From positions 1 to 40,697 of the IMG/VR virus record IMGVR_UViG_3300028581_000092: a stretch of DNA of 40,697 bases; one strand, given 5' to 3'. The notes beneath the pieces were generated by a model, which worked only from the letters and a program-made list of their open reading frames with translations, had not been told where the DNA came from and searched no databases. Below are positions 3,001 to 39,409 of this stretch, piece by piece. This stretch comes from a virus. Numbering within the stretch: the stretch's first letter is position 1; each line of letters starts with the position of its first letter. The translations under genes and the position numbers were made by a program.

Positions 3001-3257
3001 GGGTTGAGGACATTCCTCAATTGTCAGATTATTTACCAGAACACAAATACCTAATTACAGGTGTAAACCTTGGATTTATTGCTCAAGAAATTGAAGAAAA
3101 ATATCCAGATTTAGTTTGGACAGATAAATATGGTTATAAGAATTTACAATATGAGCTATTGGTTTCGGTTGGCATATCGGCATTAATTGAAAACCAAAAA
3201 AGAGTTGAAGTATTGAATAATTTTCTTAAAGATTTAAGTATAAAAATAGGTGGCTAA
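3..3257 (+). CDS. Collagen-like tail fibre-type protein with C-terminal peptidase S74 domain (5' end outside window)
   Basis: The frame is open from the first base, so the gene begins upstream of the window. About 1084 residues are visible. The first ~30 residues are non-repetitive (ending [10 protein letters not shown]). Then comes a ~930-residue Gly-X-Y array dominated by G-A-Q, with G-N-T, G-A-S and G-S-Q triplets and short interruptions such as QSSVQ. From visible residue ~972 the protein changes to a globular S74 domain beginning SDARYKTNI. The Ser (972) and Lys (977) match the self-cleaving dyad of endosialidase-type intramolecular chaperones, which trimerise fibres and are then released. 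A trimeric fibre or appendage on the virion is likely. Proline is rare, unlike animal collagen. An internal GTG at 939 is only a Gly-Ser-Val-Gly codon, not the start. The stop overlaps the next gene by 8 bases. Confidence 0.9.
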
Positions 3258-6200
3258 GGATATCGTTATATTACCAGGTAGTGCAACTGTTGAGTTGTAT
3301 GATACAAATAATACTAAGGCAACTTGGGTTTACTCCAGTGCTGTACTTGATTGGAAAGTTAGTACTACTGTTTATTTTAAAGTTATTAATACCTCACCTA
3401 AATTTAGGTTATTTTTTAACAATCTTTATGTTTTTAGTACTATTGCAACAACTGCAGGTACTGTAGTTAATAATGCTCTTTGGGCTGGCACAACAAATAC
3501 CGGACCAACAGGTGCTCAGGGTGCTGCGGGTGCTCAGGGAACTCAAGGAGGTCAAGGAAAACAAGGTGATTTTGGGTCTACAGGTCCACAAGGTTCGGTT
3601 GGTTCACAAGGTGCAACAGGTAATGTTGGTTCTCAAGGAGGACAAGGTGCCCAAGGTGGAAAAGGACCTCAAGGTTCACAAGGTACTCAGGGAGGGCAGG
3701 GTTCTCAAGGGACTCAAGGTTCACAAGGTGCTGTTGGTGGTGTAGGTTCACAAGGTGCTCAGGGAGGACAGGGTTCTCAAGGAGGACAAGGAGCTCAAGG
3801 TACTCAGGGAGGACAGGGTTCTCAAGGAGGACAAGGAGCTCAGGGTGTTCAAGGTTCTCAGGGTAATACAGGTTCACAAGGTTCTCAAGGAGGACAAGGT
3901 TCTCAAGGAGGACAAGGTTCTCAGGGTAATACAGGTGCTCAAGGTGCGGTAGGCGCTGATGGTGTTCAAGGTTCACAGGGTGCTGTTGGACCTGTAGGTT
4001 CTCAAGGTACTCAAGGAGGTCAAGGTTTTCAAGGAGGACAAGGAAGTCAAGGTAATGTAGGTCCTCAAGGTGCTAAAGGTGCTCAGGGTGTTCAAGGTCC
4101 TATTGGTGCTCAAGGTAATACAGGTTCACAAGGTTCTCAAGGAGGACAAGGTTCGCAAGGTGCCGTTGGTTCACAAGGAGCGACAGGTAATCAAGGTGCT
4201 CAAGGGGGACAAGGTTCTCAAGGTGCCGTTGGTTCACAAGGAGCAACAGGTAATCAAGGTGCTCAAGGGGGGCAAGGTTCGCAAGGTGCCGTTGGTTCGC
4301 AAGGTGCCGTTGGTGCTCAAGGTTCTCAGGGAGGAAAAGGTGCTCAAGGTTCGCAAGGAGTACAAGGTTCCCAAGGAGCGGTTGGAGCTCAAGGAGGACA
4401 GGGTACTCAAGGAGGACAAGGTTCACAAGGTAGTCCCGGTTCAGTTGGGGCTCAAGGAGGTCAAGGTGCTCAAGGTTCACAAGGAGGTCAAGGTTCCCAA
4501 GGAGCAGTTGGGGCTCAAGGAGGACAGGGAGCTCAAGGAGGACAGGGTACTCAAGGTAATACAGGTTCACAAGGAGCTCAAGGTGGTCAAGGTGTTCAGG
4601 GAACTCAGGGAGGACAAGGTGCTCAAGGAGCAACAGGTTCTCAAGGAGGACAAGGTGCACAAGGAACTCAAGGTACTCAAGGTAATACAGGTTCACAAGG
4701 AGCTCAAGGGGGTCAAGGAGTTCAAGGTTCACAAGGAGGACAGGGTGCTCAGGGTGCTCAAGGGGCTCAAGGAGGTCAAGGAGTACAGGGAGCTCAAGGT
4801 TCCCAAGGTAACACAGGTTCACAAGGTTCACAAGGAGGACAAGGTGCTCAGGGTACCCAAGGAGGACAAGGTGCTCAAGGAGCTACAGGTTCACAAGGAG
4901 GGCAAGGCGCTCAGGGTACTCAAGGAGGACAAGGTGCTCAGGGAGGACAAGGTGCTCAGGGAGGACAAGGTACTCAAGGAGGACAAGGTTCGCAAGGAGC
5001 GGTTGGTTCACAAGGCTCACAAGGAGGACAAGGTTCTCAAGGAGCTGTCGGTTCGCAAGGAGCTACTGGTAATCAAGGGGCTCAAGGAGGACAAGGTTTC
5101 CAAGGTGCTCAGGGTGGTCAGGGTGCTCAAGGTTCGTTAGGTGCTGTTGGTAGCCAGGGTGCTCAAGGTTCACAAGGTACTCAAGGAGGACAAGGTGCTC
5201 AGGGTTCTCAAGGAGGTCAAGGAGCTCAAGGAGGACAAGGTTCACAAGGTGGTGCGGGGGCACAAGGTTCACAAGGAGGACAAGGTTCTCAGGGTGGTGG
5301 TGGTTCCACAGGTGCTCAAGGTTCACAAGGTTCACAAGGAGGACAAGGTTCGCAAGGTGGTACTGGTGGTGGAGGTGCCACAGGTTCACAAGGTTCTCAA
5401 GGTGGTAAAGGAGCTCAAGGTTCTCAAGGAGGTCAAGGAGCTCAAGGTTCTCAAGGGTCTACAGGAGGTCAGGGTTCACAAGGAGGACAAGGTTCACAAG
5501 GAGGTAAAGGTGCCACAGGTCCGACAGGAGGACAAGGTTCTCAGGGAGGACAAGGTTCTCAAGGAGGTAAAGGTGCCACAGGTCCGACAGGAGGTCAAGG
5601 TGCACAAGGTGGTACTGGTGGTGGAGGTGCCACAGGTTCACAAGGTTCTCAAGGAGGACAAGGTTCACAAGGTGGCGGTGGAGGTAAAGGTGCCACAGGT
5701 TCGCAAGGTTCTCAGGGAGGACAAGGTTCTCAGGGTGGTGGTGGTTCCACAGGTGCTCAAGGTTCACAAGGTTCACAAGGAGGACAAGGTTCGCAAGGTG
5801 GTACTGGTGGTGGAGGTGCCACAGGTTCACAAGGAGGACAAGGTGCTCAGGGTACACAAGGGGGACAAGGTTCTCAGGGTGGAGGTGGCTCAACAGGTGC
5901 TGCGGGTGGCCAAGGTTCACAAGGACCACAAGGTGCTCAAGGACCACAAGGAGGACAAGGAGCTCAAGGTGCTGTTGGTTCGCAAGGTGCTCAAGGTTTC
6001 CCTTCTGAAGGAGCTGGTGCTCAAGGAGCTCAAGGTGCTCCAAATCCGACTACAGGTTCACAAGGTGCTCAAGGTTCTCAAGGACCTGGTGCTGGAGGCG
6101 CTCAAGGTGCTACAGGGGCTCAAGGAAAGGCGGGCAGTGGTTTTGGCGCTCAAGGTGCTACAGGGGCTACAGGTTCTGCAGGACCACAAGGTGCTCAAGG

Positions 6201-6546
6201 TGCTACAGGACCTAAAGGACCATCTGATATTAGATTAAAGACAAATATCGAACCTATTGAATCTGCACTTGAAAGTTTAATTAAAATTCGTGGTGTTGAA
6301 TTCTATTATAATTGGGATGATAAAGAAAAACTTGGACACAAAAACATTGGTTTCATTGCTCAAGAAGTTTTACCATATTTCCCTGAACTTGTATTCGGTA
6401 GTGAAGAGACCAACTACACCATGAAGTACAAAGAGATGATTGCCGTGTGTATTGAGGCTTTGAAAGAGCAAGAAGTCATTATCAATTCAATTGAAGACAG
6501 AGCTCAAAAACTTGTAGTAAAGGCGAAAGAAAAAAGATTACTTTAA
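3250..6546 (+). CDS. Second collagen-like fibre-type protein with N-terminal head and C-terminal peptidase S74 domain
   Basis: 1098 residues. The start is GTG at 3250, overlapping the previous stop ([19 protein letters not shown]). Residues 1-~80 form a non-repetitive beta-rich head that may attach to the particle. Residues ~85-990 are Gly-X-Y triplets with mostly G-S-Q, G-G-Q and G-A-Q, plus GGGG patches and only occasional G-P-Q/G-P-T. The S74 domain starts at S992 (SDIRLKTNI, Lys 997) and includes the typical IGFIAQEV segment; the tail is helical (EALKEQEVI). It is paralogous to the preceding gene and is probably co-expressed and translationally coupled with it. It ends tail-to-tail with the next minus-strand gene, overlapping by 4 bases. 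The repeat DNA contains long exact duplications, so length may vary between relatives. Confidence 0.92.
5275..5393 (+). repeat. 119-bp exact direct repeat, copy 1, inside the collagen-like gene
   Basis: This stretch is identical by eye to 5716-5834, starting GGAGGACAAGG and ending TTCACAAGG. The copies are 441 bp (147 codons) apart, so the duplication keeps the frame. It encodes Gly-X-Y triplets including a GGGG run. Confidence 0.85.
5716..5834 (+). repeat. 119-bp exact direct repeat, copy 2
   Basis: Second copy of 5275-5393. Exact identity at the DNA level, not just the protein level, points to recent duplication or recombination. A nearby ~60-bp near-exact tandem unit (around 5493-5592, AAAGGTGCCACAGGTCCGAC twice) supports repeat-driven length change. 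Confidence 0.85.
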
Positions 6547-11699: not shown

Positions 11700-12566
11700 A
11701 TGACAGAAAATTATTTAGGAAAAATAGTAAACGGAGATTGTATTGAAGTGATGAAGACCATGGAAGAAGGGTCTGTAGATTTGATTGTAACATCACCACC
11801 ATATGGTGTTGGGATTGATTATGATGTTCACGATGACGATATGGTTTGGGAAGAATATTCAAAATTCACACAGTCGTGGATGGAACAAGCATACCGTGTG
11901 TTGAAAGATGACGGTAGGATTGCTTTAAATATCCCGTATGAGATTAACCGACAAGCCAAGGGCGGAAGAATCTTCATGTTAAGTGAGATATGGCAAATTA
12001 TGAAACAGATTGGTTACAAGTTCTTCGGAGTTGTGGACCTTGAAGAGGAATCACCACACAGAAGTCGTACCACAGCGTGGGGGTCATGGATGAGTCCCTC
12101 GGCACCTTACATCTATAATCCAAAGGAGTGTGTTATCTTGGCATACAAGAAGAAACATATTAAGATTGTTAAAGGACAACCTGAATGGGTTGGTGAGATG
12201 GGTGAGGTTGAAGGTAAAGACGGTAACATGAGAGCCAAGATGATGTATACCGAACAACAGAAACGTGAGTTTATTGATTTGGTATTTGGACAGTGGAATT
12301 ATTTTGCCGATACTCGTTCATTGACAAAGGCGACCTTCTCAATGGACATCCCAACCAAGGCAATTAAGATTCTCACATATAAGAATGATATTGTCCTTGA
12401 CCCGTTTGCTGGTTCAGGTACAACTATGGTTGCGGCAGAAACTTTAGACCGTCGTTGGATTGGTATTGAAATCAGTTCTAACTACGCTAAAGTGGCAAAA
12501 GAAAGGGTTGGATTCTTTGTTCAACAAAAAAGACAACAGGTTTTAGAATTTCCTGAAAAATCCTAA
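11700..12566 (+). CDS. Beta-class DNA methyltransferase (N4-cytosine or N6-adenine)
   Basis: 288 residues. Catalytic motif IV TSPPY at 31-35 precedes the AdoMet-binding motif I DPFAGSGTT at 234-242, the permuted order of beta-class enzymes. GIEIS follows motif I as expected. TSPPY is commoner in N4-cytosine enzymes, but beta-class N6-adenine enzymes cannot be excluded. The recognition region is between residues 90 and 210. No restriction partner is adjacent, so this is probably an orphan enzyme protecting phage DNA or changing its expression. Last gene of the operon from 10268. Confidence 0.93.
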   Translation: MTENYLGKIVNGDCIEVMKTMEEGSVDLIVTSPPYGVGIDYDVHDDDMVWEEYSKFTQSWMEQAYRVLKDDGRIALNIPYEINRQAKGGRIFMLSEIWQIMKQIGYKFFGVVDLEEESPHRSRTTAWGSWMSPSAPYIYNPKECVILAYKKKHIKIVKGQPEWVGEMGEVEGKDGNMRAKMMYTEQQKREFIDLVFGQWNYFADTRSLTKATFSMDIPTKAIKILTYKNDIVLDPFAGSGTTMVAAETLDRRWIGIEISSNYAKVAKERVGFFVQQKRQQVLEFPEKS

Positions 12567-12573
12567 ATAATAT

Positions 12574-12609
12574 AAATGTCTTGTTTTTTAACAAAAAAAC
12601 TGGACATTT
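12574..12609. terminator. Bidirectional terminator between convergent genes
   Basis: Nested inverted repeats: AAATGTC / GACATTT outside and GTTTTTT / AAAAAAC inside around a short loop. It lies exactly between the plus-strand methyltransferase and the stop of the minus-strand small gene. Confidence 0.65.
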
Positions 12610-12761
12610 TAATCTTTCGTATATCTAAAATTACAAATTGGTTTTCCGTTCACCAATGGTAAACCATGTTGGTCAAGGGTGATAGTTTTTACTATCACCT
12701 TTTTATTTTTAAATCTACCCATCAAAATTGTGTCACCAACCTTTATATTAAGTTGTATCAT
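12609..12761 (-). CDS. Small phage protein, 50 aa (ILMGRFKNKK family)
   Basis: ATG at 12761, TAA at 12609-12611. Begins MIQLNIKVGDTILMGRFKNK and continues as a beta-rich chain ending NGKPICNFRYTKD. I recall similar VGDxIxxGRFKNKK proteins in T4-like phages; this memory was not checked. TATAAATA sits 2 bases before the start on the minus strand. The region is otherwise read wrongly as an N-terminal extension of the gene at 12793. Confidence 0.75.
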   Translation of the reverse strand: MIQLNIKVGDTILMGRFKNKKVIVKTITLDQHGLPLVNGKPICNFRYTKD

Positions 12762-21466: not shown

Positions 21467-22714
21467 ATGCAAACAAAAAAACCATCGGCAATCGTTTACG
21501 GTTGGCACACTTTGGGGGAGATTATATTACATTCAGACATTTACTGGGAGGAACACCTTCATGATGAGGTTGTGATTTATTCTTTACCCTATGAGAATAC
21601 AGTCATTGAAGATTATACACAGTATAAACCTGACCTAATTATTTCTTTTGATGAGAACATTGAAATACCACATTTTCATCTAACGAGATTTCACATTCAT
21701 TATGATGAACCGTTACCTGATATGGTTTTGGCAAATGTGATTGTATGTCAGTCTGTTTTCAGAAACACCGAATACATACGTCCACGGTTCTCAGTATTCA
21801 CTCCAACGTATAAGACAAACGAAAGGATTTACAGAACCTATGAGAGTATGAAAAAACAAACATTCACCAATTGGGAATGGATTGTGTTGGATGATTCCCC
21901 TGATGATGTTACGTGGAATATCCTCAAGAAAATTGCTGAGAAGGACTACAGGGTAAAACCTCACAAGTTGTATCCAATTACAGGTGGTAACGTTGGTTTG
22001 GCAAAACACAGAGCGGCAACACTTGGTGATGGGGATTGGTTGGTTGAGTTGGACCATGATGATGCATTAACTTCAGAGTGTTTACAAATCTCTCATGATG
22101 CCATCCTTCAATACCCCGATGCTGGTTTCCTATACACAGACGTGACCGAGTGTTACGAGGATGGTGAATTCAAATACTATGACCACGATTGGTCAGGTGA
22201 TTGGTACGCAAGACACGACAATTACTTTGACTTTGGATATGCAGGTCATACCAAAGTTATGGTTGATGGTGTGGAGAGACTGGCACATTGGTACCCCGAT
22301 ATCAATCCATTGTCCATACGGTTTAACATATCAATGCCAAACCATGTAAGAATGTGGGAGAGAAAACTATATCATGAGATTGGTGGACATAACAAGTTGA
22401 CACCTGTTGCTGATGACTTTGAACTTATTGTTCATACATTTCTACATACACGAATGATTCACGTCAAAAAAATGTTATACATCCAATATAACAATAAAAA
22501 TTCAACGGTTGATAACAATGCGACAGACATCAATCGTAGAGCAAGATTAATCCGAGACCACTATGACAAACGAATTCATGAGAGAATCATTGAGTTGGGT
22601 TTTGAAGATTGGAATTGGGATGAAGAACTGGGTCACTCTCAGAAGTTTCAAAACCGTGGGGGAGTGAGAAAGTATCATAATGAAGAACAAGTAATGAATT
22701 ACATCTATGAATAA
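21467..22714 (+). CDS. GT2-family glycosyltransferase with extra N-terminal domain
   Basis: 415 residues. The N-terminal ~105 residues are a separate alpha/beta domain. The GT-A core follows: SVFTPTYKTNERIYRTYESM, WIVLDDSPDD, GGNVGLAKHRA and the DxD metal site ELDHDD (D196, D198). No signal or membrane segment, so it acts in the cytoplasm on nucleotide sugars. Overlaps the next glycosyltransferase by 8 bases; the cassette with UDP-galactopyranose mutase suggests surface-glycan or virion decoration. Confidence 0.9.
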   Translation: MQTKKPSAIVYGWHTLGEIILHSDIYWEEHLHDEVVIYSLPYENTVIEDYTQYKPDLIISFDENIEIPHFHLTRFHIHYDEPLPDMVLANVIVCQSVFRNTEYIRPRFSVFTPTYKTNERIYRTYESMKKQTFTNWEWIVLDDSPDDVTWNILKKIAEKDYRVKPHKLYPITGGNVGLAKHRAATLGDGDWLVELDHDDALTSECLQISHDAILQYPDAGFLYTDVTECYEDGEFKYYDHDWSGDWYARHDNYFDFGYAGHTKVMVDGVERLAHWYPDINPLSIRFNISMPNHVRMWERKLYHEIGGHNKLTPVADDFELIVHTFLHTRMIHVKKMLYIQYNNKNSTVDNNATDINRRARLIRDHYDKRIHERIIELGFEDWNWDEELGHSQKFQNRGGVRKYHNEEQVMNYIYE

Positions 22715-23870
22715 TAACAAGAAAATTAAATTGTGTTTAAACGCAATGGTTGCCAACGAGGCACCAACAATAACCCGAATGTTAGAAACAGTGTGGAGAC
22801 ACATTGACTATTGGGTTATCCAAGATAACGGTTCAAAAGACGGAACTCAGGACATTATCCGTAACTTCTTTGCGGAAAAAGGAATCCCTGGTTTACTCTA
22901 TGAGATTGAATGGCAATATCCAGGTTGGAACCGAGACCATACCTTGAAGACATGTCTCCAAACAGACCACGGATGTCAATGGATTTTGAGGATGGACGCT
23001 GATGAGATTCTTGAGATTGATGAAGATTTTGATTGGTCCGTATTGGATGACTTGAGTGTGGATTCTTATAACGTAATTGCACATGCAAACGGTATGAGAT
23101 ACTACCGAACTTGGTTGTGGAATGCTGACCGACCATGGTTCTTCCAACACGATAAAAGACACGAAACAATCCACTTACCTGAAATCGGTGAAGGGTTTGT
23201 TAGAGTTACTCTCCCTGAAGGATTCAGACATGTGGTTCACAGTGACGGACAGACTTGGAATGTTCCAAGAAAGTTCTTGAAAGACGCGTTGGAACTTGAG
23301 ATTGACAAAGTGGTTGGTAATACCGTTAAAGAAGATTTGTATCACCTTTGGTATGTTGCAAAATCATACTCTGATTGTTGGGGTAAGTCTGACGAACTTC
23401 CATTTGGTTTAGACCACTCAAAAGAATTTGCTAGAAGATGTATTTTCTACTACGAAAAGTTCATGGAGTATTCTCACAACTATTATGTTACTGGTAGACC
23501 TGCAAGAATTGATGAGATGGCTTACTTCGCATTTATCTTGATGGGTCAGGCTTGGGAAGTAATTGGTGACTTGGAAAAAGCTGAAAAGTGTTTTCATCAG
23601 GCAGAGGCGTTCGCTCCAATAAGAAACGAACACTTACTCTACCTGTGTTTCTTCTTGGAAACTCAAAGAAGATACGATGAAATCTATGGATACTTACAAA
23701 TTATGATGGGACAAGAAAGAGTGAATCCATTCCCTCAGATGTGTTTCTTGATTGAAGACCGTTGTTACCATAACACATCAAATTTCTTACAAGAGTGGTC
23801 AGATAAACTCAAACGTAGAATTGAGGAACCAGTATTAAGTTCTGACGGTGTTGAATTTGATTTCGAATAG
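22707..23870 (+). CDS. GT2-family glycosyltransferase with TPR-like C-terminus
   Basis: 387 residues. Starts MNNNKKIKLCLNAMVANEAP, then VIQDNGSKDGT and the metal site RMDADE (~95), the GT2 short form. The middle has many His and Trp (acceptor region). From residue ~285 paired helices (GQAWEVIGDLEKAEKCFHQA) look like tetratricopeptide repeats. Similar glycosyltransferase-TPR proteins glycosylate proteins or lipids. Overlaps the mutase gene by 23 bases. Confidence 0.9.
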   Translation: MNNNKKIKLCLNAMVANEAPTITRMLETVWRHIDYWVIQDNGSKDGTQDIIRNFFAEKGIPGLLYEIEWQYPGWNRDHTLKTCLQTDHGCQWILRMDADEILEIDEDFDWSVLDDLSVDSYNVIAHANGMRYYRTWLWNADRPWFFQHDKRHETIHLPEIGEGFVRVTLPEGFRHVVHSDGQTWNVPRKFLKDALELEIDKVVGNTVKEDLYHLWYVAKSYSDCWGKSDELPFGLDHSKEFARRCIFYYEKFMEYSHNYYVTGRPARIDEMAYFAFILMGQAWEVIGDLEKAEKCFHQAEAFAPIRNEHLLYLCFFLETQRRYDEIYGYLQIMMGQERVNPFPQMCFLIEDRCYHNTSNFLQEWSDKLKRRIEEPVLSSDGVEFDFE

Positions 23871-24960
23871 CAAATATGATTACCTAATCGTAGGCGCAGG
23901 ACTCTTCGGAGCAACCTGTGCCTACGAGTTGGGTAAAAATCATAGAGTACTTGTAATAGATAAAAGAAGTCACATTGGGGGTAACTGTTATACCGAAGAT
24001 GTTGACGGAATTCATGTTCACCGATACGGTGCACACATCTTTCATACAGACAGTAAAAAGATATGGGATTGGGTAAATCAATTTGCAGATTTTAAACAGT
24101 TTGTTAATTCACCCATAGCAAACTACAAAGAAGAGTTATACACCCTCCCATTTAATATGTGGACATTCTACCAACTGTGGGGTGTGAAGACAGAAGAACA
24201 AGCAAAGGCGAAGATAGAGGAACAAAGGTATAAGGGTCCTGTAACTAACTTAGAACAACAAGCCTTGTCTATGGTTGGTACCGACATATATGAGAAGTTT
24301 ATTAAGGGATATACCGAGAAACAATGGGGGAAGAAATGTGCGGAACTACCTGCGTCAATCATCAAAAGAATACCTGTAAGGTTTACATGGGACAATAATT
24401 ACTTCAATGATAGATACCAAGGTATTCCTGTTGGCGGGTACACACAGATATTTGAAAAGTTATTGGACAATGTTGATGTGTTCTTGAACCAAGACTTCTT
24501 TGAAAACAAAAGAATGTGGGAAGAGGCTGCGGATAAGATAATCTACACAGGACCAATTGATAAGTTTTTTGATTACGAACATGGTAGATTAGAATACCGT
24601 AGTTTGAGGTGGGAGAACGTCCATATTACTTCACACAGTTTTCAAGGACATCCCGTGGTTAATTATACTGACAGTGATACACCATTCACAAGGATTTTAG
24701 AACATAAGTTCTTTGACTATCAAAATCAAAAAACAAGTTATGTTAGTAAAGAATATCCCTGTGACTATACAGGTGATAATGAACCGTATTACCCAATCAA
24801 GGATGATACAAATGGTGAGATTTACACCAAATATAAAATACAAGGTGATAAACTTGAGAAGTATATGTTCGGCGGTAGGTTAGGAACTTATCAATACTAT
24901 GACATGCACCAAGTTATTGCTCAGGCACTTCATCTTTGTCAGAAAATAAAAATGGGTTAA
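23848..24960 (+). CDS. glf: UDP-galactopyranose mutase
   Basis: 370 residues, the usual family length. No in-frame ATG near the start; GTG at 23848 (or TTG three bases later) is needed, inside the previous gene. FAD-binding DYLIVGAGLFGA (11-22), HIGGNCYT (42-49), the mutase signature RYGAHIFHT (59-67) and PVGGYTQIF. It converts UDP-galactopyranose to UDP-galactofuranose with reduced FAD. With two glycosyltransferases upstream, it should supply galactofuranose for a phage-directed glycan. Confidence 0.95.
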   Translation: MLNLISNSKYDYLIVGAGLFGATCAYELGKNHRVLVIDKRSHIGGNCYTEDVDGIHVHRYGAHIFHTDSKKIWDWVNQFADFKQFVNSPIANYKEELYTLPFNMWTFYQLWGVKTEEQAKAKIEEQRYKGPVTNLEQQALSMVGTDIYEKFIKGYTEKQWGKKCAELPASIIKRIPVRFTWDNNYFNDRYQGIPVGGYTQIFEKLLDNVDVFLNQDFFENKRMWEEAADKIIYTGPIDKFFDYEHGRLEYRSLRWENVHITSHSFQGHPVVNYTDSDTPFTRILEHKFFDYQNQKTSYVSKEYPCDYTGDNEPYYPIKDDTNGEIYTKYKIQGDKLEKYMFGGRLGTYQYYDMHQVIAQALHLCQKIKMG

Positions 24961-29160: not shown

Positions 29161-29667
29161 TTAAACCCTTGCGTGAAAATTAATATCGTCATAGACACTT
29201 GGTATTGACCTCATCAACAATTTTTGTTTGTCGGGGTGTAAATCTTTGGGAAATTTTATATTGTAAACTAGTTCGGGTCTAAAATCTTGAAGATAAGGAC
29301 CTGTAATTATAACATTAAGATTTCTACCATTAACAATTCTTCTGAGTCTATCTGTCATAATACCCTGAAGTTCCAAAATTTTATCTTCCATGAATTTGTA
29401 ATTAACGTGTTTGAATATGATTTTATCAAAATCTTCTTCTAAACCAACTAACTCCAATGATTCTATAATTTCGTCTTCAACTTCTTCAAAAAATTTATAA
29501 TAATTAGAATCATAGTTTGGACCCAACATATGAAATTTAGAACTATCAACCTTAAGAGTTAGGTTCAAATTACCCGAAGGTCCTGATTCTCTTATTGAAA
29601 ATGGTATTGAATAGATACTAAAAAAATCTTTCAACACTTTAGTTGCAACTTTAATTTTACTACTCAT
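29161..29667 (-). CDS. Hypothetical, 168 aa
   Basis: Starts ATG 29667, overlapping the stop of the upstream secreted gene by one base. The N-terminal half has a beta hairpin (GNLNLTLKVDSSKFHM) and the middle is an acidic helix pair. The C-terminus contains LNVIITGPYL and NIKFPKDLHPDKQK. No motif recognised; no signal peptide, unlike its partner. Confidence 0.75.
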   Translation of the reverse strand: MSSKIKVATKVLKDFFSIYSIPFSIRESGPSGNLNLTLKVDSSKFHMLGPNYDSNYYKFFEEVEDEIIESLELVGLEEDFDKIIFKHVNYKFMEDKILELQGIMTDRLRRIVNGRNLNVIITGPYLQDFRPELVYNIKFPKDLHPDKQKLLMRSIPSVYDDINFHARV

Positions 29668-30125
29668 TATTTTAAATACTTTTCACAATCATAATAATTC
29701 AACTTTCTTTGAATGTTATCTATTAAAAATAGGTCAACATCTTTTAGTTTTATTAAAAACTCAAGTTCATAAAGATAACAAACACACTCCTCTTCTTTGC
29801 TATCTAAGGATAATTTTGATAGTTCAATATGTTTTGATTCGTGAACTATTACACAAGCCAAATTTTGGATGTTACCATATCTAACTTCAATGGTTGTGAT
29901 ATAAATTTCATTACCTTCGGTGGTTGAATAGTTACCATTCCAAAAACCAATATGAGTACAATTTTTTATTACTGTGTTGTATACCGTTGTGTCGGTATTT
30001 TTAATTAGTGTTAGTGCCTTATGAACATTATGTTCCCAATTATCGCCAACAACATCTATTTTTATCTGTGCATTAAGAGTTATACAAAAAATTGTAAGTA
30101 GTGTAAAAACAAGTGATTTAATCAT
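29667..30125 (-). CDS. Secreted HExxH-motif protein (putative zinc peptidase), 152 aa
   Basis: Start ATG 30125 (MIKSLVFTLL), which gives a clear signal peptide ending near residue 19-20 (CITLNAQ); the longer frame from 30200 would run through the divergent gene's coding region. VIVHESKHIE holds HExxH at 95-99, and Glu residues at 111-113 could be the third zinc ligand, as in gluzincin-like proteins. The exported location and motif suggest an extracytoplasmic metallopeptidase, or an inactive relative. Divergent from the T9SS-type gene with 28 bases between them. Confidence 0.75.
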   Translation of the reverse strand: MIKSLVFTLLTIFCITLNAQIKIDVVGDNWEHNVHKALTLIKNTDTTVYNTVIKNCTHIGFWNGNYSTTEGNEIYITTIEVRYGNIQNLACVIVHESKHIELSKLSLDSKEEECVCYLYELEFLIKLKDVDLFLIDNIQRKLNYYDCEKYLK

Positions 30126-32127: not shown

Positions 32128-32442
32128 ATGTCAGAAGAACAAGAAAATGACGGAACCTGGAGTGGTTTGAAAAAAACTATCATCGGGACAATTGCAACAG
32201 CAGTCACAGCTGGTGGAGCTTATTTCACCACAACACTTTTTGGTGGTGATGAAGAAGAGTCACCAAAAACAGAGCAAGTTGCACCTGCGGCACCTGTGAT
32301 TAATTTGAATGTTGACAATTCATCTAAGAACACGAATTCTGGTGGTGGAACAACAACAGTTATCAAAGAAAAGACAGTTGAAAAACCAGCGGCACCTGCT
32401 CCTAAACAAGAGAAAAGTGAGTCTGAAGATGCACCTTGGTAA
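32128..32442 (+). CDS. Single-pass membrane protein with Pro/Ala-rich tail, 104 aa
   Basis: Residues ~18-40 form a Gly/Ala/Thr-rich membrane helix (TIIGTIATAVTAGGAYFTTT). The rest is low-complexity: NSGGGTTTVIKEK and PAAPAPKQEKSE. First gene of the operon 32128-37190; its 3' end overlaps the CsgG-like gene by 14 bases. It is probably an envelope partner of that protein. Confidence 0.78.
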   Translation: MSEEQENDGTWSGLKKTIIGTIATAVTAGGAYFTTTLFGGDEEESPKTEQVAPAAPVINLNVDNSSKNTNSGGGTTTVIKEKTVEKPAAPAPKQEKSESEDAPW

Positions 32443-33157
32443 ACTAATTGTTTTGGGATTAGTATTAGTTGGGTGTGGTACTCCAAAAGAGTGCCATGGT
32501 CAACAAATCGGTTCTGTTAAAACTGAGGAGTATACCGCAAATTTTGAAAAGAAAAAGTCTTTGGAATCACTTCCACCTTATACAGATACAATACAAATCC
32601 CAATTCAAATCTTAAAGATTGGTATTAATGATGAAGTGTATGAAATGTACCCTGAATTAAAAGATGCTCGTGTTGGGATGGGTGTTACAAACATTGTATT
32701 GGAATACTTGGAGGAAACAGGAAGATTTGTATTCACAGAAGACAAATTGGAAATCAAAGAAAGAATGGTTCAACAATTCAAAGCTTCCAATAAAGGATTT
32801 ACCGAAAACAAAATTGATGGAAAAGGTAAAATCAAATTGGCAAAATACTTTGTTTACATTGAAGTCTATGATTTTTCTGTAGGTGAAGATGAAGTTGTTG
32901 AAACAAGTGGTGTTACAATAAAACAAGTAACTCAGTTAGGACTACAGGTTAGATTTGTGGATGCTGAAACGGGAGAAATTATTACAGGGTCAGGTCAAGG
33001 TAGAGCAATCACAACCAAGACTTCAACGACTTTAGGTGATATTGAAGGACCAACATTTAACAAATCAACTGTGGGTGTATCTACAAAAAAGGCTCTTGAG
33101 ACTTCAACTGTAAGAGTAGTTGAAAAACTCATTAAAAAAGGAATGTTAAAAAGTTAA
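32429..33157 (+). CDS. CsgG-like outer-membrane lipoprotein
   Basis: 242 residues from ATG 32429; the longer frame from 32309 lies inside the previous gene. Signal peptide with lipobox LVGC (Cys 16). The mature part follows the CsgG pattern: VGMGVTNIVLEYLEETGRFVF, ERMVQQFKA, LAKYFVYIEVYDF, then VRFVDAETGEIITGSG and a C-terminal helix pair. CsgG forms the nonameric outer-membrane channel for curli subunit export. A phage copy suggests export of the neighbouring secreted proteins or altered envelope permeability. Curli partners CsgE/F are not obvious. Confidence 0.8.
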   Translation: MHLGKLIVLGLVLVGCGTPKECHGQQIGSVKTEEYTANFEKKKSLESLPPYTDTIQIPIQILKIGINDEVYEMYPELKDARVGMGVTNIVLEYLEETGRFVFTEDKLEIKERMVQQFKASNKGFTENKIDGKGKIKLAKYFVYIEVYDFSVGEDEVVETSGVTIKQVTQLGLQVRFVDAETGEIITGSGQGRAITTKTSTTLGDIEGPTFNKSTVGVSTKKALETSTVRVVEKLIKKGMLKS

Positions 33158-33158
33158 A

Positions 33159-33500
33159 ATGAAAAAATTATTTAGTACAAGTGATTACGTTAAGGTAGAT
33201 GATAAAAACAGATTCTACTACATGTTACAACAAATGCAATCAAACAGATGGAGAATTACTATCGTTGTGTTGTTTTTGTTTTTCTTTATCATTTTAGGTA
33301 TCAACGTTGCAACATTTGCGGGTATTCAAATTCAAGAGAGTTGGAAGGAAATGTTATTAATCTTATTGGGTGCTTTCGTTGGTAATCTAAATAAGGTTGT
33401 TGACTATTGGTTTAACTCTGAAGATAGAGATAAGATGTTAATTCAGAAAGTGGACGAGGAAGATGGTCAAGTATTATCGGATGTGACGAGTGTTGATTAA
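33159..33500 (+). CDS. Membrane protein with two helices, 113 aa
   Basis: Residues ~34-58 (ITIVVLFLFFFIILGINVAT) and ~67-82 (MLLILLGAFVGNLNKVV) are membrane segments. Acidic C-terminal tail. One base from the upstream gene and a TAATG overlap with the next. A role in anchoring the exported system or in the membrane step of lysis is possible; no holin-specific feature seen. Confidence 0.78.
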   Translation: MKKLFSTSDYVKVDDKNRFYYMLQQMQSNRWRITIVVLFLFFFIILGINVATFAGIQIQESWKEMLLILLGAFVGNLNKVVDYWFNSEDRDKMLIQKVDEEDGQVLSDVTSVD

Positions 33501-34990
33501 TGAAAAAAATATTAATCATATTATCACTATTATTTTCCTCTAATTTATTTGGACAGGGGTTCACGTATTCGTATGTGGACCCTTGTTCCAAAAAACAAAA
33601 AGTAATTAATATTACGGGTAACCAAAATGTTACCGTGAACTACCTTGGTTTTATTGGTAGTTTTAGCCAAACAGATTTTGTTAATGGTACTTTTGATAAT
33701 TGGATAACAAGTGTTCAAGTTCAAGGTGCAAATCAACCATGTGATGAGATGATGACACAAACTCAGACAACTCAAAATATGATTATTACTCAAAACATAA
33801 TAGCAACATTGACTTCTATTACTGCGGCATCTACTATGAGTGTATCATCGGTTGGTAACTCAATTAGTAATAGTGTAGATAATGCTTCGTCAAATAACTC
33901 TTCGTCCTCAAGAAGAGGTTCTTCAAACAAACAAAACAATGGAACAAATCAATCAAATAATACATCTTCAGGAACTGTATCGAATGGTTCTACAACTCAA
34001 AACGGAACACCTAACACAACAGGAAACTCAGGAGGTGGTTCAACTAATGGTGGAGGAAATTCGCAACAAGGAGAAACAACTAACCAAAATGGAGGAAACA
34101 CATCAAGTTCGGGTAACTCAACTCAAGGTGGAAGTGGACAGACTCAGCCATCTGTAAACAATCCTTCAAATAATAATTCAAGTCAAGGTAATACCCAATC
34201 GGGTACAAATACAGGTCAAAGTGGGGGTGGTAATACCCAATCGGGTACAAATCCAACTGATAAACCTAAACAAGAGACTACGGGTGGAGGTGTTGGTGGA
34301 ACAACAAACTCTGTTGCAAACGCTGCAGAATCATCATCAGGTAATGGTGGTGGTTCCAAAGTTAGAGTGGGTTCAGTAATTGGTACGGGTGATATCGTTG
34401 CGTTAAGAAGTAATGAAGACGGTTCAAATCAGTTTAAAGGGACTATGTCGGTTACCAAGTCAAATACAAACAATACAAAGGCAAAAGGATTTCTTTTGAA
34501 CTTCACAACAACAATTAATAATACAAACCTTACATTTTACGGGGCGTTTTCTAATAAGAAAAAAACAAACACTTTGATTGTTGCGAACTCATCTATGATT
34601 GATTTTGAAAAAAACCTGTTCAACACATCAACTGCAATGAATTCAAAGAGATTTGGTAAATTAACTATGATGGGTGGACTGAACATGACTGTGGGTGTTT
34701 TAGCCGGTGAAGGGTTTTCAAACTTGTCAGCAATTGGTGGAGGGTTTATGCCATTCAAAGCATCTAAAAAACTTTCAGGGAATATATTAATGTTGGGGGT
34801 TTATTCACCCTTTACAAAGTTCTATGATGGTAAGTGGTGGGATTCAGGAATCTTATTGGTACCGTTCAGTTCTTGGGATTATACAATATCAAAATCATTC
34901 AAGTACAACGTGAGTATTTCTAGTACTTACCAAGTAAAAGGTAATGTATTAAACTATCAAATATTAACAGGGGCAAAAATTTTATTATGA
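33500..34990 (+). CDS. Secreted N/Q/G/S/T-rich protein with beta-rich C-terminal domain, 496 aa
   Basis: Signal peptide 1-19 (LLFSSNLFGQ). Residues ~20-90 are a small globular part with two Cys. Residues ~115-290 are low-complexity Asn/Gln/Gly/Ser/Thr, including the repeated NTQSGTN. Residues ~295-496 are beta-rich, with alternating strands that could be a membrane barrel or autotransporter-like fold, ending ILTGAKILL. The composition of the middle resembles amyloid- or adhesin-type linkers. Placed next to the CsgG-like channel, it is a candidate export substrate. Confidence 0.75.
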   Translation: MKKILIILSLLFSSNLFGQGFTYSYVDPCSKKQKVINITGNQNVTVNYLGFIGSFSQTDFVNGTFDNWITSVQVQGANQPCDEMMTQTQTTQNMIITQNIIATLTSITAASTMSVSSVGNSISNSVDNASSNNSSSSRRGSSNKQNNGTNQSNNTSSGTVSNGSTTQNGTPNTTGNSGGGSTNGGGNSQQGETTNQNGGNTSSSGNSTQGGSGQTQPSVNNPSNNNSSQGNTQSGTNTGQSGGGNTQSGTNPTDKPKQETTGGGVGGTTNSVANAAESSSGNGGGSKVRVGSVIGTGDIVALRSNEDGSNQFKGTMSVTKSNTNNTKAKGFLLNFTTTINNTNLTFYGAFSNKKKTNTLIVANSSMIDFEKNLFNTSTAMNSKRFGKLTMMGGLNMTVGVLAGEGFSNLSAIGGGFMPFKASKKLSGNILMLGVYSPFTKFYDGKWWDSGILLVPFSSWDYTISKSFKYNVSISSTYQVKGNVLNYQILTGAKILL

Positions 34991-35439
34991 GAAAACTAAT
35001 TATAACAATAGGTATTATACTAAGTGGTATAAATCTAAACGCACAAGATTGTTACACTGTAACTAAAGTAGAAAATAAAACAGACAATCCTGATTTATCT
35101 TCAAAGAGATTCACCTTTGGTGTTAAACAAATTACCGAAGAATTAGTAAGTCAAAAATATTCATTATGTGAAGATGGTGCACCAATAACTGTTGATATAG
35201 TTTCTATTGAAGCACCTTCAATTGGTTTTAACATCGGACCATTCATGATTAAAAAGAAAATAACTATCGTAAAGACTAAAATGATTATTGATTCTGTGGT
35301 TTACGAGGGTGAGGGTGATGCTAAATTATCCGTAAAAGCTGGTTTTGCCGAATTAAGAGATGAGAACTTACCTTTCGAGAAATCAGTCTTTGCTACAGCT
35401 GTAAAAAAATCTATTGAAGATGCTTTGAGTAAATTCTAA
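34987..35439 (+). CDS. Small secreted protein, 150 aa
   Basis: Signal peptide 1-19 (IIGIILSGINLNAQ-type ending). The mature part contains a beta-alpha pattern: FTFGVKQITEELV, PITVDIVSIEAPSIGFNIGP, then VYEGEGDAKLSVKAGF and a C-terminal helix. The overall order (helix, strands, long sheet, helix) resembles small envelope lipoproteins of the YajG/LptE type, but there is no lipobox and the match is weak. ATGA overlap with the previous gene, TAATG with the next. Confidence 0.72.
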   Translation: MRKLIITIGIILSGINLNAQDCYTVTKVENKTDNPDLSSKRFTFGVKQITEELVSQKYSLCEDGAPITVDIVSIEAPSIGFNIGPFMIKKKITIVKTKMIIDSVVYEGEGDAKLSVKAGFAELRDENLPFEKSVFATAVKKSIEDALSKF

Positions 35440-36599
35440 TGAGAATTTTGTTGTTCATAATGAGTTACTTTATTTTTGGTGATTTGGTATCCCAAAATTT
35501 TACTTATTCAGGAACAATATACAATGCTGATGAAACAGGTGCAAATAATGTACCTGTCAAATTATACAAAAGGAGCGTCAGTACTACTGGAAACAACAGT
35601 ACGTCTGTAAAAGTATATCGGACTCACTTCGGAACAGGTAATACATCTCAATACCAAGCATATCCATCCACAAGAACTGAAATGGATAGGTGTTTCAACA
35701 CTTCTTATAGTGCAACTAATCTTTGGTGGAGTGGGACCATGTCAGGGAACGTATCATTGAATTTTGGGCAATATACAAGTCTTACATCTGCCGGAGCAAC
35801 CGTTCCGACAAGTGGTGAGTATTATGCTGTTGAGGTAACATTCACTTTTACTCCCCAAGAAACAGGAAGTTATTCTTTTGGAATAACCTCTGATGATGGT
35901 TCAGATTTATTGTTGGTTAACACTGGTAATATAGTCGAGTGGTACGGTGGTAAAGGATATGGTGTCTACAGATACGGTACCGTTAATTTGACAAAAGGAA
36001 ATTCATATACTTTTATCGCAAGAATGCAAGAGTATGGTGGTGGGGATGGTTTATATTTAGTGTGGAGAAGACCCTCCCAAACAACTCACTCATATCAATC
36101 ATCAGAGATTGGTACTCAATCTACTACAACAACAACTTGGGCTTTGGAAGCAACTTCTAATACAAATTCTACCGGTTATTATAGTTTTAACAGAACGAGT
36201 GACCCATCAAAACAATACTATATTGAAGTTGTCTCACAAACTCCTGTTACAAGTTTGAATAATTCTGACGGGTTAATAATTGGTAATTATGTCTTGAAAA
36301 ACAAATCTGTAAATGGTATTATCTTTCAAACCTACGATTTGAACAATGATGGTAAATTAACAGTTTCGGACCAATTTTTACTTTTTGCTAAAAAATCAGG
36401 TCTTAAATCTACGTGGGGGTCTTTACCTATCTCAAGATTTTTCATTCAGAGTGAATTTGATTCATTGAAAGTGGCAAATTCCAATTTAAGAAATACTTAT
36501 TCAGGTGTTGCGACTTATACATCTTCAACCCTAACAAGTGGTGGAAGTTTGAATTTATATTTGATTGCTACAGGATATTATAAACAAGTTACCTATTAA
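35439..36599 (+). CDS. Secreted PA14-domain protein with dockerin-like module, 386 aa
   Basis: Signal peptide ends near residue 19 (GDLVSQ). Residues ~50-215 fit a PA14 carbohydrate-binding domain: VEVTFTFTPQETGSYSFGIT, SDDGSDLLLV, then YTFIARMQEYGGGDGLYLVW. After a linker, YDLNNDGKLTVSDQFLLFAK (~300-319) is a dockerin-like calcium loop. It is followed by TWGSLPISRFFIQSEF, which aligns with TWANSVPDVKFFTQSEY in the protein at 30154. It lacks a T9SS sorting domain and ends shortly after this module. Likely a surface adhesin or glycan binder. Confidence 0.8.
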   Translation: MRILLFIMSYFIFGDLVSQNFTYSGTIYNADETGANNVPVKLYKRSVSTTGNNSTSVKVYRTHFGTGNTSQYQAYPSTRTEMDRCFNTSYSATNLWWSGTMSGNVSLNFGQYTSLTSAGATVPTSGEYYAVEVTFTFTPQETGSYSFGITSDDGSDLLLVNTGNIVEWYGGKGYGVYRYGTVNLTKGNSYTFIARMQEYGGGDGLYLVWRRPSQTTHSYQSSEIGTQSTTTTTWALEATSNTNSTGYYSFNRTSDPSKQYYIEVVSQTPVTSLNNSDGLIIGNYVLKNKSVNGIIFQTYDLNNDGKLTVSDQFLLFAKKSGLKSTWGSLPISRFFIQSEFDSLKVANSNLRNTYSGVATYTSSTLTSGGSLNLYLIATGYYKQVTY

Positions 36600-36602
36600 A
36601 AA

Positions 36603-37190
36603 ATGAAGAAATTATTTTTATTAATCCCAATATTATTTTTTACATCCTCAATAAATTTAGATGATGTAACATTACAGAAAACAATCTATAAAGTACGATA
36701 TTCACAAGTTTTCGAACAACCTTTGGAATTGACTTATGAGTCATCAAACCGACCTACCAATGTTAACAGAGGGTCTATGGATTTCTACTTAGAACCAAAT
36801 GTTAAAACTTCAGACGGCGCAGACTACGTTAATAACATTTATGATAAAGGACATCTTGCACCTGCAGCAACTTTTTCAGATAATGAACAGAACCTTAAAA
36901 CAACTTTTTCATATCTTAATTGTGCATTACAAAATCAATACCTCAACAGAGGGGAATGGAGATTACTTGAGGAACAAGAAAGAAAATGGGATGATGCTGA
37001 GAAGTTAACCATCAAGATAAGTGTTGAATTCAAAAATAAAAACACTGTCTTACCAACAGGTGCTACAGTACCAACAGGATTTACCAAACACATATACTTT
37101 AACAATCAAAGATTTTGGAAATGTTATTACTTCCCAAATGTAAAACCAACTAAAAAGTGGGGTGAACATCAAATTTCTTGTAGTCACTAA
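36603..37190 (+). CDS. Secreted DNA/RNA non-specific endonuclease
   Basis: 195 residues. Signal peptide (MKKLFLLIPILFFTSS). The nuclease motif is YDKGHLAPAA (D81, H84), equivalent to DRGH of the NucA/NUC1 beta-beta-alpha-metal family. It is followed by NCALQNQYLNRGEWRLLEE, which supplies the metal-binding Asn. Short for the family but the active site is intact. Exported to the periplasm or outside, it could degrade free DNA, for example competing phage DNA or host debris. Last gene of the operon. Confidence 0.87.
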   Translation: MKKLFLLIPILFFTSSINLDDVTLQKTIYKVRYSQVFEQPLELTYESSNRPTNVNRGSMDFYLEPNVKTSDGADYVNNIYDKGHLAPAATFSDNEQNLKTTFSYLNCALQNQYLNRGEWRLLEEQERKWDDAEKLTIKISVEFKNKNTVLPTGATVPTGFTKHIYFNNQRFWKCYYFPNVKPTKKWGEHQISCSH

Positions 37191-38677: not shown

Positions 38678-39409
38678 ATGTTGAGCGATAGTTTTTATAA
38701 TAATTTTGAATCCTATAAAAATATTTACAATAATCAGAGTCCCTATCCTCATGTTGTTATTGATAATTTTCTAAGAGATGATGTTTATAATGCGTTGATG
38801 AACGAGGTTAATCAATTATCAAAAAAACCTGATTCATTTTTTATTAACAATGTTTATGGTATTATAGATGAGCATGATAGTCAAAGGGGTAAAAGACAAG
38901 TTGATGGAATAGAAAAAATGGATTTAAAAATGGTTGAGGTGATTAAATTTCTTAATTCTAAATATTTTTTGGGTTTGGTAAAAGATATGACAGGATTTAA
39001 AGAATTACAATCAATTGAAAATTATAGTAACTCAGGATACCATCAAACTCACCGTGGAGGTTTTTTGGATGTTCATCATGATTTTAATTTATCTCATCAT
39101 GATTCTACTTTGTTTCGTCAAATCAATTTTTTACTTTACCTTAATAAAAATTGGGAATCTGAATGGGGTGGTGATTTAGAATTATGGGACAAAGACATGT
39201 CAGGACCTGTCAAATTAATATCTCCAATTGGTAATCGTGTTGTAATGTTTAACATTGATAGGGCGCCTCACGGACATCCTAACCCACTAAACTGTCCTGA
39301 AAATGAGTACAGAAAAAGTTTTGCATTATATTATTATAATAGGGAAAACCCAAAATATAATCTTGTTAACAGGGCCATTTGGAAAAATGAAATTGATACA
39401 TTAACATAA
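38678..39409 (+). CDS. 2OG-Fe(II) oxygenase, prolyl-4-hydroxylase-like
   Basis: 243 residues. Jelly-roll core with the iron motif HHD (H133, D135) in FLDVHHDFN, distal His 198 in APHGHP, and Arg 212 (YRKSFALYYY), which binds 2-oxoglutarate. INFLLYLNKNW and EWGGDLELW are the typical core strands. Such enzymes hydroxylate prolyl or other residues using O2 and 2-oxoglutarate. The collagen-like proteins at 3-6546 are conceivable substrates, though they contain little proline. Other substrates (sugars, nucleotides) are possible. TATTTAAAAAT precedes the ATG. Confidence 0.9.
   Translation: MLSDSFYNNFESYKNIYNNQSPYPHVVIDNFLRDDVYNALMNEVNQLSKKPDSFFINNVYGIIDEHDSQRGKRQVDGIEKMDLKMVEVIKFLNSKYFLGLVKDMTGFKELQSIENYSNSGYHQTHRGGFLDVHHDFNLSHHDSTLFRQINFLLYLNKNWESEWGGDLELWDKDMSGPVKLISPIGNRVVMFNIDRAPHGHPNPLNCPENEYRKSFALYYYNRENPKYNLVNRAIWKNEIDTLT

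Follow-up and report, generated by a model that had tools for sequence, protein, structure and literature searches.

A gene cassette of Bacteroidota phages that may display exchangeable lectins on a cohesin-dockerin scaffold

Two described systems come closest to the locus considered here, as far as excerpts of the published reports describe them. In Cryophage, three variable genes (endoglucanase, GH39 and PA14) each carry the tail of the type IX secretion system (T9SS), and superinfection exclusion has been proposed for this cargo (Nat Commun 2020, PMC7468147). Pelagiphages and OM43 phages carry CsgG/CsgF cassettes of the curli type, that is, of the type VIII secretion system or T8SS (PMC7029224, PMC9004378, PMC9599517). 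Here we describe a gene cassette, P0001 to P0008, in the virus record IMGVR_UViG_3300028581_000092, a stretch of 40,697 bases that is called the window throughout. The reading we put forward, and to which we give about an even chance, is that phages of Bacteroidota use this cassette to display an exchangeable lectin on a cohesin-dockerin scaffold at the surface of the infected cell, by way of the host T9SS and of barrel and CsgG-fold proteins of their own. How the parts would dock, by which routes they would be exported and what they would do is inferred.

With the Cryophage genes, to the extent that the excerpts allow comparison, the cassette shares phage-coded T9SS-sorted proteins that are strongly variable among variants, one of them with PA14. 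Here, however, a single constant scaffold has the tail, and the variable adhesin is tailless but ends in a dockerin-like module; linked CsgG-fold and barrel genes may be a further difference. With the curli loci of pelagiphages and OM43 phages, as excerpted, it shares the plan of a multi-gene phage cassette for surface export with a CsgG-fold protein, whereas it lacks Pfam matches of the CsgA, B, E or F type and has instead a T9SS tail, cohesin- and dockerin-type modules, a separate 12-stranded barrel and hosts among the Bacteroidota (Flavobacterium in the case of the phage immuto).

Layout and linkage of the cassette

The first-pass annotation of the window had described an operon of seven genes beginning at 32128. 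All seven open reading frames (ORFs) are present at the starts it gave, and their coordinates confirm the tight coupling: P0002 and P0003 overlap by 14 bases, P0004 and P0005 by 1, P0005 and P0006 by 4, and P0006 and P0007 by 1, with gaps of 1 base between P0003 and P0004 and of 3 between P0007 and P0008. The block itself begins farther upstream, since P0001, on the same strand and 78 bases before P0002, belongs to it, being found in 81 of the 82 loci of the first comparison set (see below). The genes are as follows.

P0001, 30154..32049, plus strand: 631 residues, signal peptide, putative surface scaffold and anchor (from domain matches and family profile)
P0002, 32128..32442, plus strand: 104 residues, one membrane helix, proline-rich tail; core member of the cassette
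P0003, 32429..33157, plus strand: 242 residues, exported protein with predicted CsgG fold; lipoprotein in the window phage
P0004, 33159..33500, plus strand: 113 residues, about two membrane helices
P0005, 33500..34990, plus strand: 496 residues, signal peptide, predicted C-terminal outer-membrane beta-barrel
P0006, 34987..35439, plus strand: 150 residues, exported, probable distant paralogue of P0003
P0007, 35439..36599, plus strand: 386 residues, exported adhesin with PA14 insert and dockerin-like module, no T9SS tail
P0008, 36603..37190, plus strand: 195 residues, exported non-specific endonuclease, optional satellite

The single lipobox that had been counted is LVGC in P0003, the two membrane-helix proteins are P0002 and P0004, and the four signal peptides correspond to signal-peptide-like starts, judged by eye, of P0005, P0006, P0007 and P0008. 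Among relatives, a crude test for signal peptides (a hydrophobic N-terminal core with K/R) was passed by 33/33 members of the P0001 family, 34/34 of P0003, 31/32 of P0005, 33/33 of P0006 and 35/35 of P0007. A search of PHROGs gave no match at E<=0.001 for P0001 to P0007.

Three sets of loci were compared, the ORFs around each locus being assigned by profile searches. The first, from a scan of IMG/VR with P0003, holds the best 80 of 138 relatives together with the window and immuto (NC_055915; four immuto records match P0003 among 50,697 phage records), and its 82 loci form 35 clusters at 95% P0003 identity. The second holds the best 80 of 123 loci found with a distant relative, 43% identical to P0003, from the contig L087 of a bacterial metagenome-assembled genome (MAG), and the third all 27 loci found with the anchor gene of immuto rather than with P0003. 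With three MAG contigs (L085 to L087) these make 192 loci, a number that includes near-identical contigs of one virus and counts immuto twice (as L082 and L183). The family alignments comprise A1 (34 of the 35 clusters, L082 left out), A2 (33 rows, L082 and the truncated L011 left out), A3 (34 clusters plus L023, whose row is about 10 residues short), A5 (33 rows, L065 and L011 left out) and A6 (32 rows, L082, L011 and L069 left out).

In the first set (n = 82) P0001 was found in 81 loci, P0002 in 81, P0003 in 82, P0004 in 68, P0005 in 81, P0006 in 74, P0007 in 76 and P0008 in 28; the corresponding numbers are 76, 80, 80, 68, 79, 69, 71 and 1 for the second set (n = 80), and 27, 26, 25, 3, 24, 22, 23 and 4 for the third (n = 27). 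The presence of P0003 in the first two sets is by construction, as P0003-type seeds were used. The most constant genes are those of the scaffold P0001, of P0002, of the barrel P0005 and of the CsgG-like P0003, and all six core genes (P0001, P0002, P0003, P0005, P0006 and P0007) are present in 159 of the 192 loci, some of the 33 incomplete ones being cut by contig ends. In every one of the 159 complete loci the core genes lie on a single strand, in one of three orders (109, 34 and 16 loci) and with a span whose median is 6,445 bases, and the sizes of contigs that carry the cassette lie between about 4 kb and 271 kb. That the linkage is kept despite reordering, gene splitting and such varied contig sizes speaks for joint action of the genes, with shared ancestry in a single phage group as a second source of the linkage that is mixed in with it. 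The cassette is not a chance neighbourhood, and its homologues are not scattered singly among phages, the loci found through the anchor gene having the CsgG-like gene in 25 of 27 cases. The proposal of a conserved export cassette that is directed toward the envelope of the host and includes a CsgG-fold protein, a module of glycan-binding type and a secreted nuclease is upheld.

Proposed scaffold and exchangeable adhesin

The cassette had been taken to be built around a CsgG channel, but its organising element would seem to be the overlooked T9SS/cohesin scaffold P0001 together with the variable adhesin P0007. P0001 begins with a cohesin-like beta domain (by eye), continues with a transthyretin-like and dockerin-like module at about 183-375 and a cohesin domain at about 405-542, and ends in a T9SS C-terminal sorting domain at 552-624, for which the window protein scores 28.5 bits (Pfam Por_Secre_tail, cut-off 27). 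It has both marks of T9SS cargo, this tail and a signal peptide, and since the sorting domain would need host machinery, the earlier idea of a self-contained system is unlikely to be right. At E<=0.01, Por_Secre_tail is found in 33/33 members of the family, Cohesin in 27/33 (best E 9.5e-14) and Dockerin in 12/33 (best E 2.5e-6). Against the PDB, the family profile matches cellulosomal cohesins at 406-542 (6kg8/6kgc, E 0.0025-0.0032) and the scaffoldin adaptor chain 4uyp_B at 244-305 (E 0.0019).

In immuto, a phage of Flavobacterium, the cassette corresponds to gp012-gp019, labelled in GenBank as nuclease, lectin, cohesin-domain and hypothetical proteins. The nuclease and lectin genes come first, there is no match to P0004, and the scaffold is split into two genes, an anchor (gp015) and an adaptor (gp014). 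The anchor has a signal peptide, a Cohesin match of 36.7 bits (cut-off 24.1) and a Por_Secre_tail match of 34.6 bits (cut-off 27); in the adaptor the N-terminus looks cohesin-like and a later module dockerin-like, as judged by eye and from its alignment with P0001 and not from Pfam; and the lectin, gp013, matches Lectin_C at 57.3 bits (cut-off 22.6). The split suggests a chain that runs from anchor to adaptor to lectin, and the occurrence of split and fused scaffolds is presumably the pattern to be expected of parts that bind one another. The likeness to a cellulosome lies in the cohesin of the anchor, the cohesin-like and dockerin-like ends of the adaptor and the dockerin-like end of the cargo; the difference is that here the cargo consists of lectins and not enzymes, that the assembly would be viral and carry a T9SS tail, and that the dockerin calls are weak.

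In most members of the P0007 family a variable module interrupts the N-terminal beta domain (by eye). In the window protein a beta scaffold holds a PA14 insert, as had been annotated (25.8 bits, Pfam cut-off 24), and is followed by the dockerin-like module. Among 35 members, at E<=0.01, the named modules are Lectin_C (24), Laminin_G_3 (12), Dockerin (6), GEVED (2) and PA14 (1, the window); Por_Secre_tail is found in 0/35 at the same threshold. At the C-terminus stands a module that hhalign identifies as a homologue of the dockerin-like one in P0001 (probability 99.9), and of 130 distinct P0007-type ORFs 119 have a calcium-loop pattern within their final 160 residues, as compared with 0.35% of shuffles. 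EPN and WND/WNS, which we take to be motifs of mannose-type C-type lectins, occur together in 72 of these 130 ORFs.

How the insert changes among relatives is seen when the window is set beside L023. Over aligned columns the identity is 88% for P0001, 99% for P0002, 97% for P0003, 95% for P0005 and 88% for P0006, as against 33% for P0007, whose insert in L023 has no Pfam name. Over 14 hand-picked pairs of loci, P0007 was the odd one out in nine, at 26-43% identity where the other proteins had at least 55%, and in two more it differed mainly in length. These alignments indicate that the P0007 insert is swapped among close relatives, the place being taken by a C-type lectin, laminin-G, PA14, GEVED or unnamed module.

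Predicted barrel and CsgG-fold pair

The product of 33500, P0005, had been annotated as a low-complexity secreted protein. It has a signal peptide, a small N-terminal domain (20-75) with invariant cysteines 29 and 81 around it, a helix (82-123), a disordered linker of about 165 residues rich in Gly, Asn and Ser (124-288) and, in the AlphaFold2 model, 12 long antiparallel strands (292-495) that form a C-terminal barrel. The predicted local distance difference test score (pLDDT) of the model averages 59; it is very low in the linker, and from residue 291 onward 17 of 21 blocks of ten residues reach 70-86. The best structural match among those listed is the translocator of the autotransporter NalP (VIA Z 24.3, 226 residues aligned, 2.6 A), after which come further autotransporters, porins and, at Z 17.7, FapF; the VIA lists, here and for P0003 below, stop short of a full search, and families absent from them may match as well. 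The NalP alignment starts at model residue 80 and so covers a portion of the long helix; this helix may sit inside the pore. The 12 strands and the match to NalP point to an outer-membrane protein and not to a released low-complexity one, and on these models P0005 is a better candidate for an outer-membrane channel than P0003. Its 12-stranded C-terminal barrel resembles that of type V autotransporters (NalP, EstA) and of FapF; it differs from autotransporters in the long disordered stretch between helix and barrel and in having no Pfam autotransporter match at E<=1.

P0003, by its model (pLDDT 70, predicted template modelling score 0.63), appears to have the CsgG fold, as had been annotated: ranks 1-17 of a Foldseek search are all CsgG (best E 3e-7), and VIA aligns 156-168 residues with CsgG at Z 11.8 (168 at 3.9 A for 6l7a). 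The next structural matches are PelC and Cj1090c (10.1) and LptE and FlgT (8-9); several such relatives are outer-membrane-associated lipoproteins or parts of rings, and not all are channels. At the level of sequence the CsgG assignment falls short. Pfam CsgG (PF03783) scores 19.7 bits against a cut-off of 20.8 and is found in 2/34 family members at E<=0.01; the profile alignment of the family with E. coli CsgG is not significant (E 0.037, 25 columns); and searches of PDB chains gave two chance-level matches for the P0003 sequence (E 0.55 and 0.67) and none for the family profile. Nor is the lipid anchor conserved, a strict lipobox being found in 9/34 members and a looser one in 16/34, with no cysteine at residues 11-30 in 15/34. 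Titles of PDB entries contrast a non-lipidated pre-pore CsgG with membrane-bound CsgG. The two hairpin-region segments, 19-23 and 31-33 residues long as compared with 23 and 33 in CsgG, are similar in hydropathy, the first being more charged, and the monomer model has only three long strands in this region; pore and non-pore proteins are not told apart by the hydropathy of these hairpins. P0003 may be periplasmic, either soluble or held by a lipid anchor, and not the channel on which the first-pass annotation had centred the operon.

P0006 has no Pfam match of its own. Profile-profile comparison relates it to P0003 (probability 97.1, E 4.8e-11; the strongest BLAST match joining members of the two families has E 6.6e-9), and from this we take it to be a distant paralogue of P0003.

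A common chromosomal operon of the hosts is not supported, as a family search of genomes, confined to stretches that bear two conserved peptide patterns, yielded four genome contigs. Three of them, L085 (254 kb), L086 and L087, are MAG contigs that have further cassette genes and for that reason may be viral contigs in MAGs. One of the three comes from a MAG labelled Sphingomonadaceae, yet has a scaffold gene of the T9SS-tail family; on L087, at 12092-12645, a P0007-type gene apparently lies in two overlapping frames, through a frameshift or an assembly error. In the phylum of the Flavobacterium MAG one of 395 sampled genomes matched, the MAG itself, among the matches listed and with at most seven candidates scored per genome; in that of the KSB1 MAG five of 82 matched, the four besides the MAG weakly (E 1e-12 to 2e-5). 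On the KSB1 contig L088, at 787-3591, a CsgG-like lipoprotein (Pfam CsgG 25.7 bits, over the cut-off) is followed by a 414-residue protein with an acidic linker and a barrel-like end (by eye) and by a second CsgG-like protein, in the order of P0003, P0005 and P0006. The middle gene was not found homologous to P0005 (hhalign probability 1.6) and the trio is for that reason an architectural parallel only, although it could be an ancestral outer-membrane module.

Proposed assembly of the parts and competing explanations

In the scheme that we propose, P0001, P0003, P0005, P0006 and P0007, all with signal peptides, would leave the cytoplasm by the Sec route, and P0001, with its sorting domain, would use the T9SS of the host to pass the outer membrane and would then be fixed on the surface. 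There its cohesin would bind the dockerin-like end of P0007, much as in a cellulosome in which lectins had replaced the enzymes. The P0005 barrel, with P0003 and P0006 in the periplasm, might carry P0007 over the outer membrane or, alternatively, might hold the lectin complex there. The displayed lectin would bind surface glycans of the host type and control adsorption, either by blocking superinfection or by keeping progeny off debris. It is tempting to go further and to imagine a new kind of surface organelle made by a virus, a cellulosome-like lectin coat with two export routes (the host T9SS for the scaffold and, for the lectin, a new outer-membrane translocon of phage barrel and CsgG-fold proteins), docking on the outside and a lectin swapped to follow the glycans of the host, a picture that we hold only tentatively and as less probable than not.

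Several observations weigh against the proposed assembly. In the window, Dockerin scores 17.4 bits in P0001 and 17.0 in P0007, under the Pfam cut-off of 22.9, and P0001 has no Cohesin match at E<=1, so that the domains are called through relatives. At E<=0.05 immuto gp014 has neither a Cohesin nor a Dockerin match in Pfam, and gp013 has no Dockerin match. The stricter dockerin-like loop pattern occurs in only 39 of the 130 P0007-type ORFs (zero shuffles) and in 31 of 159 P0001-type ORFs, of which 32 have the looser one; given this scarcity, the loops may be degenerate. Usual dockerins have two loops. Three of the 14 pairs of loci gave no sign of exchange, P0007 being 64, 74 and 89% identical. 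P0007 could also ride on P0001 through the T9SS, and an endolysin-type gene near the cassette in 21/35 clusters makes a role in lysis possible.

Of the rival explanations, the one that fares best, though we consider it doubtful, is that the lectin acts in capture, sticking infected cells or debris to fresh hosts or to polysaccharide particles, and not in blocking phages. The same anatomy would serve, the binding modules are diverse, and 'sibling capture' has already been proposed for pelagiphage curli in the excerpted report (PMC7029224), whereas for the OM43 curli phage the excerpts record that no clumping was observed (PMC9004378). Adsorption control is slightly favoured over capture because the window encodes GtrB-like glycosyltransferases and because Immutovirus has genes that putatively glycosylate cell-surface components, according to excerpts of a review (PMC11500664).

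It is less probable, and on balance unlikely, that the cassette is a variant of the curli (T8SS) or Fap type, in which P0003 would form a nine-subunit channel of the CsgG kind for the secretion of P0007 or of some other fibre protein. In its favour, the fold of P0003 matches CsgG first, FapF is among the matches of P0005, and phage CsgG/CsgF cassettes have precedents, in excerpted reports, in the pelagiphages and OM43 phages cited above. Against such a variant stand the Pfam score of P0003 and its patchy lipobox, the presence of a distinct barrel gene in 184 of the 189 loci of the three sets, and the finding of no Pfam match of the CsgA, B, E or F type among the eight cassette proteins at E<=1, a search that divergent partners could escape.

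A function in late lysis, in which P0004, P0005 and the CsgG-fold proteins would open the outer membrane and the nuclease digest released DNA, the lectins being incidental, appears quite improbable. It draws on the endolysin-type gene family within the fetched flanks (the one member scanned has PG_binding_1 and GH19) and on the small membrane proteins at the place of P0004, which itself stands before or after P0003 among relatives and looks holin-like by eye only; another small membrane-protein family is found near that place in 6/35 clusters. The genes that are most constant are nevertheless P0001, P0002, P0003 and P0005, lysis would not obviously call for an exchange of lectins or for a T9SS tail, the immuto endolysin lies about 6 kb off, past tRNA genes, and P0004 is found in three of the 27 loci seeded with immuto. 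The annotation of P0008 as a nuclease holds (PF01223, Endonuclease_NS, 71.8 bits, cut-off 23, E 8.2e-20; D[KR]GH motif in 12/12), its place in the core does not, and with 28 of 82 loci in the first set it is an optional gene. Finally, that P0001 and P0007 are glycan binders of the virion or its tail, as carbohydrate-binding virion proteins are common in phages, is very improbable, since signal-peptide-like starts in all members of both families, on the crude test, and the T9SS tail of all 33 of P0001 would direct them away from the cytoplasm, the site of virion assembly. An anti-phage defence system is not supported, with no PADLOC match for the eight proteins at E<=0.01.

Some genes around the cassette deserve mention. 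Just upstream, on the minus strand at 29667..30125, lies an exported, zincin-like HExxH protein whose start was set at the methionine that precedes its signal peptide (at its longest the ORF reaches 30200); the family is a frequent neighbour, found in 29/35 locus clusters with the HExxH motif in 29/29, and has no Pfam match. Downstream, 38678-39409 encodes a 2OG-Fe(II) oxygenase (64.6 bits, cut-off 27). At 21467-24960 there are GtrB-like, beta-1,4-glycosyltransferase-like and phrog_9677 (459.6 bits) genes, which possibly modify surface glycans, and at 11700-12566 there is a DNA methyltransferase (phrog_67, E 2.6e-46). Two large ORFs at 939-6546 match tail-fibre and collagen-like tail families, and this region has about 48-55% GC as compared with about 30-40% elsewhere in the window.

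In the open-access literature, as covered by titles and the openings of abstracts and not including the primary Immutovirus paper, no report of lectin display by cohesin and dockerin in phages, or of this set of genes, was found, and there is a real chance that the principle of assembly is new for viruses. If the proposed display of a lectin on a cohesin-dockerin scaffold is correct, phages of Bacteroidota would encode a modular, swappable surface coat built by a kind of docking known from the degradation of plant fibre, and possibly also a new outer-membrane export pair of a 12-stranded barrel and CsgG-fold proteins. This would account for the runs of genes labelled 'hypothetical' in such phages and would offer a mechanism of surface exclusion or adhesion that can be tested, directly so in immuto on Flavobacterium sp. 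LMO8, a cultured carrier of the cassette.

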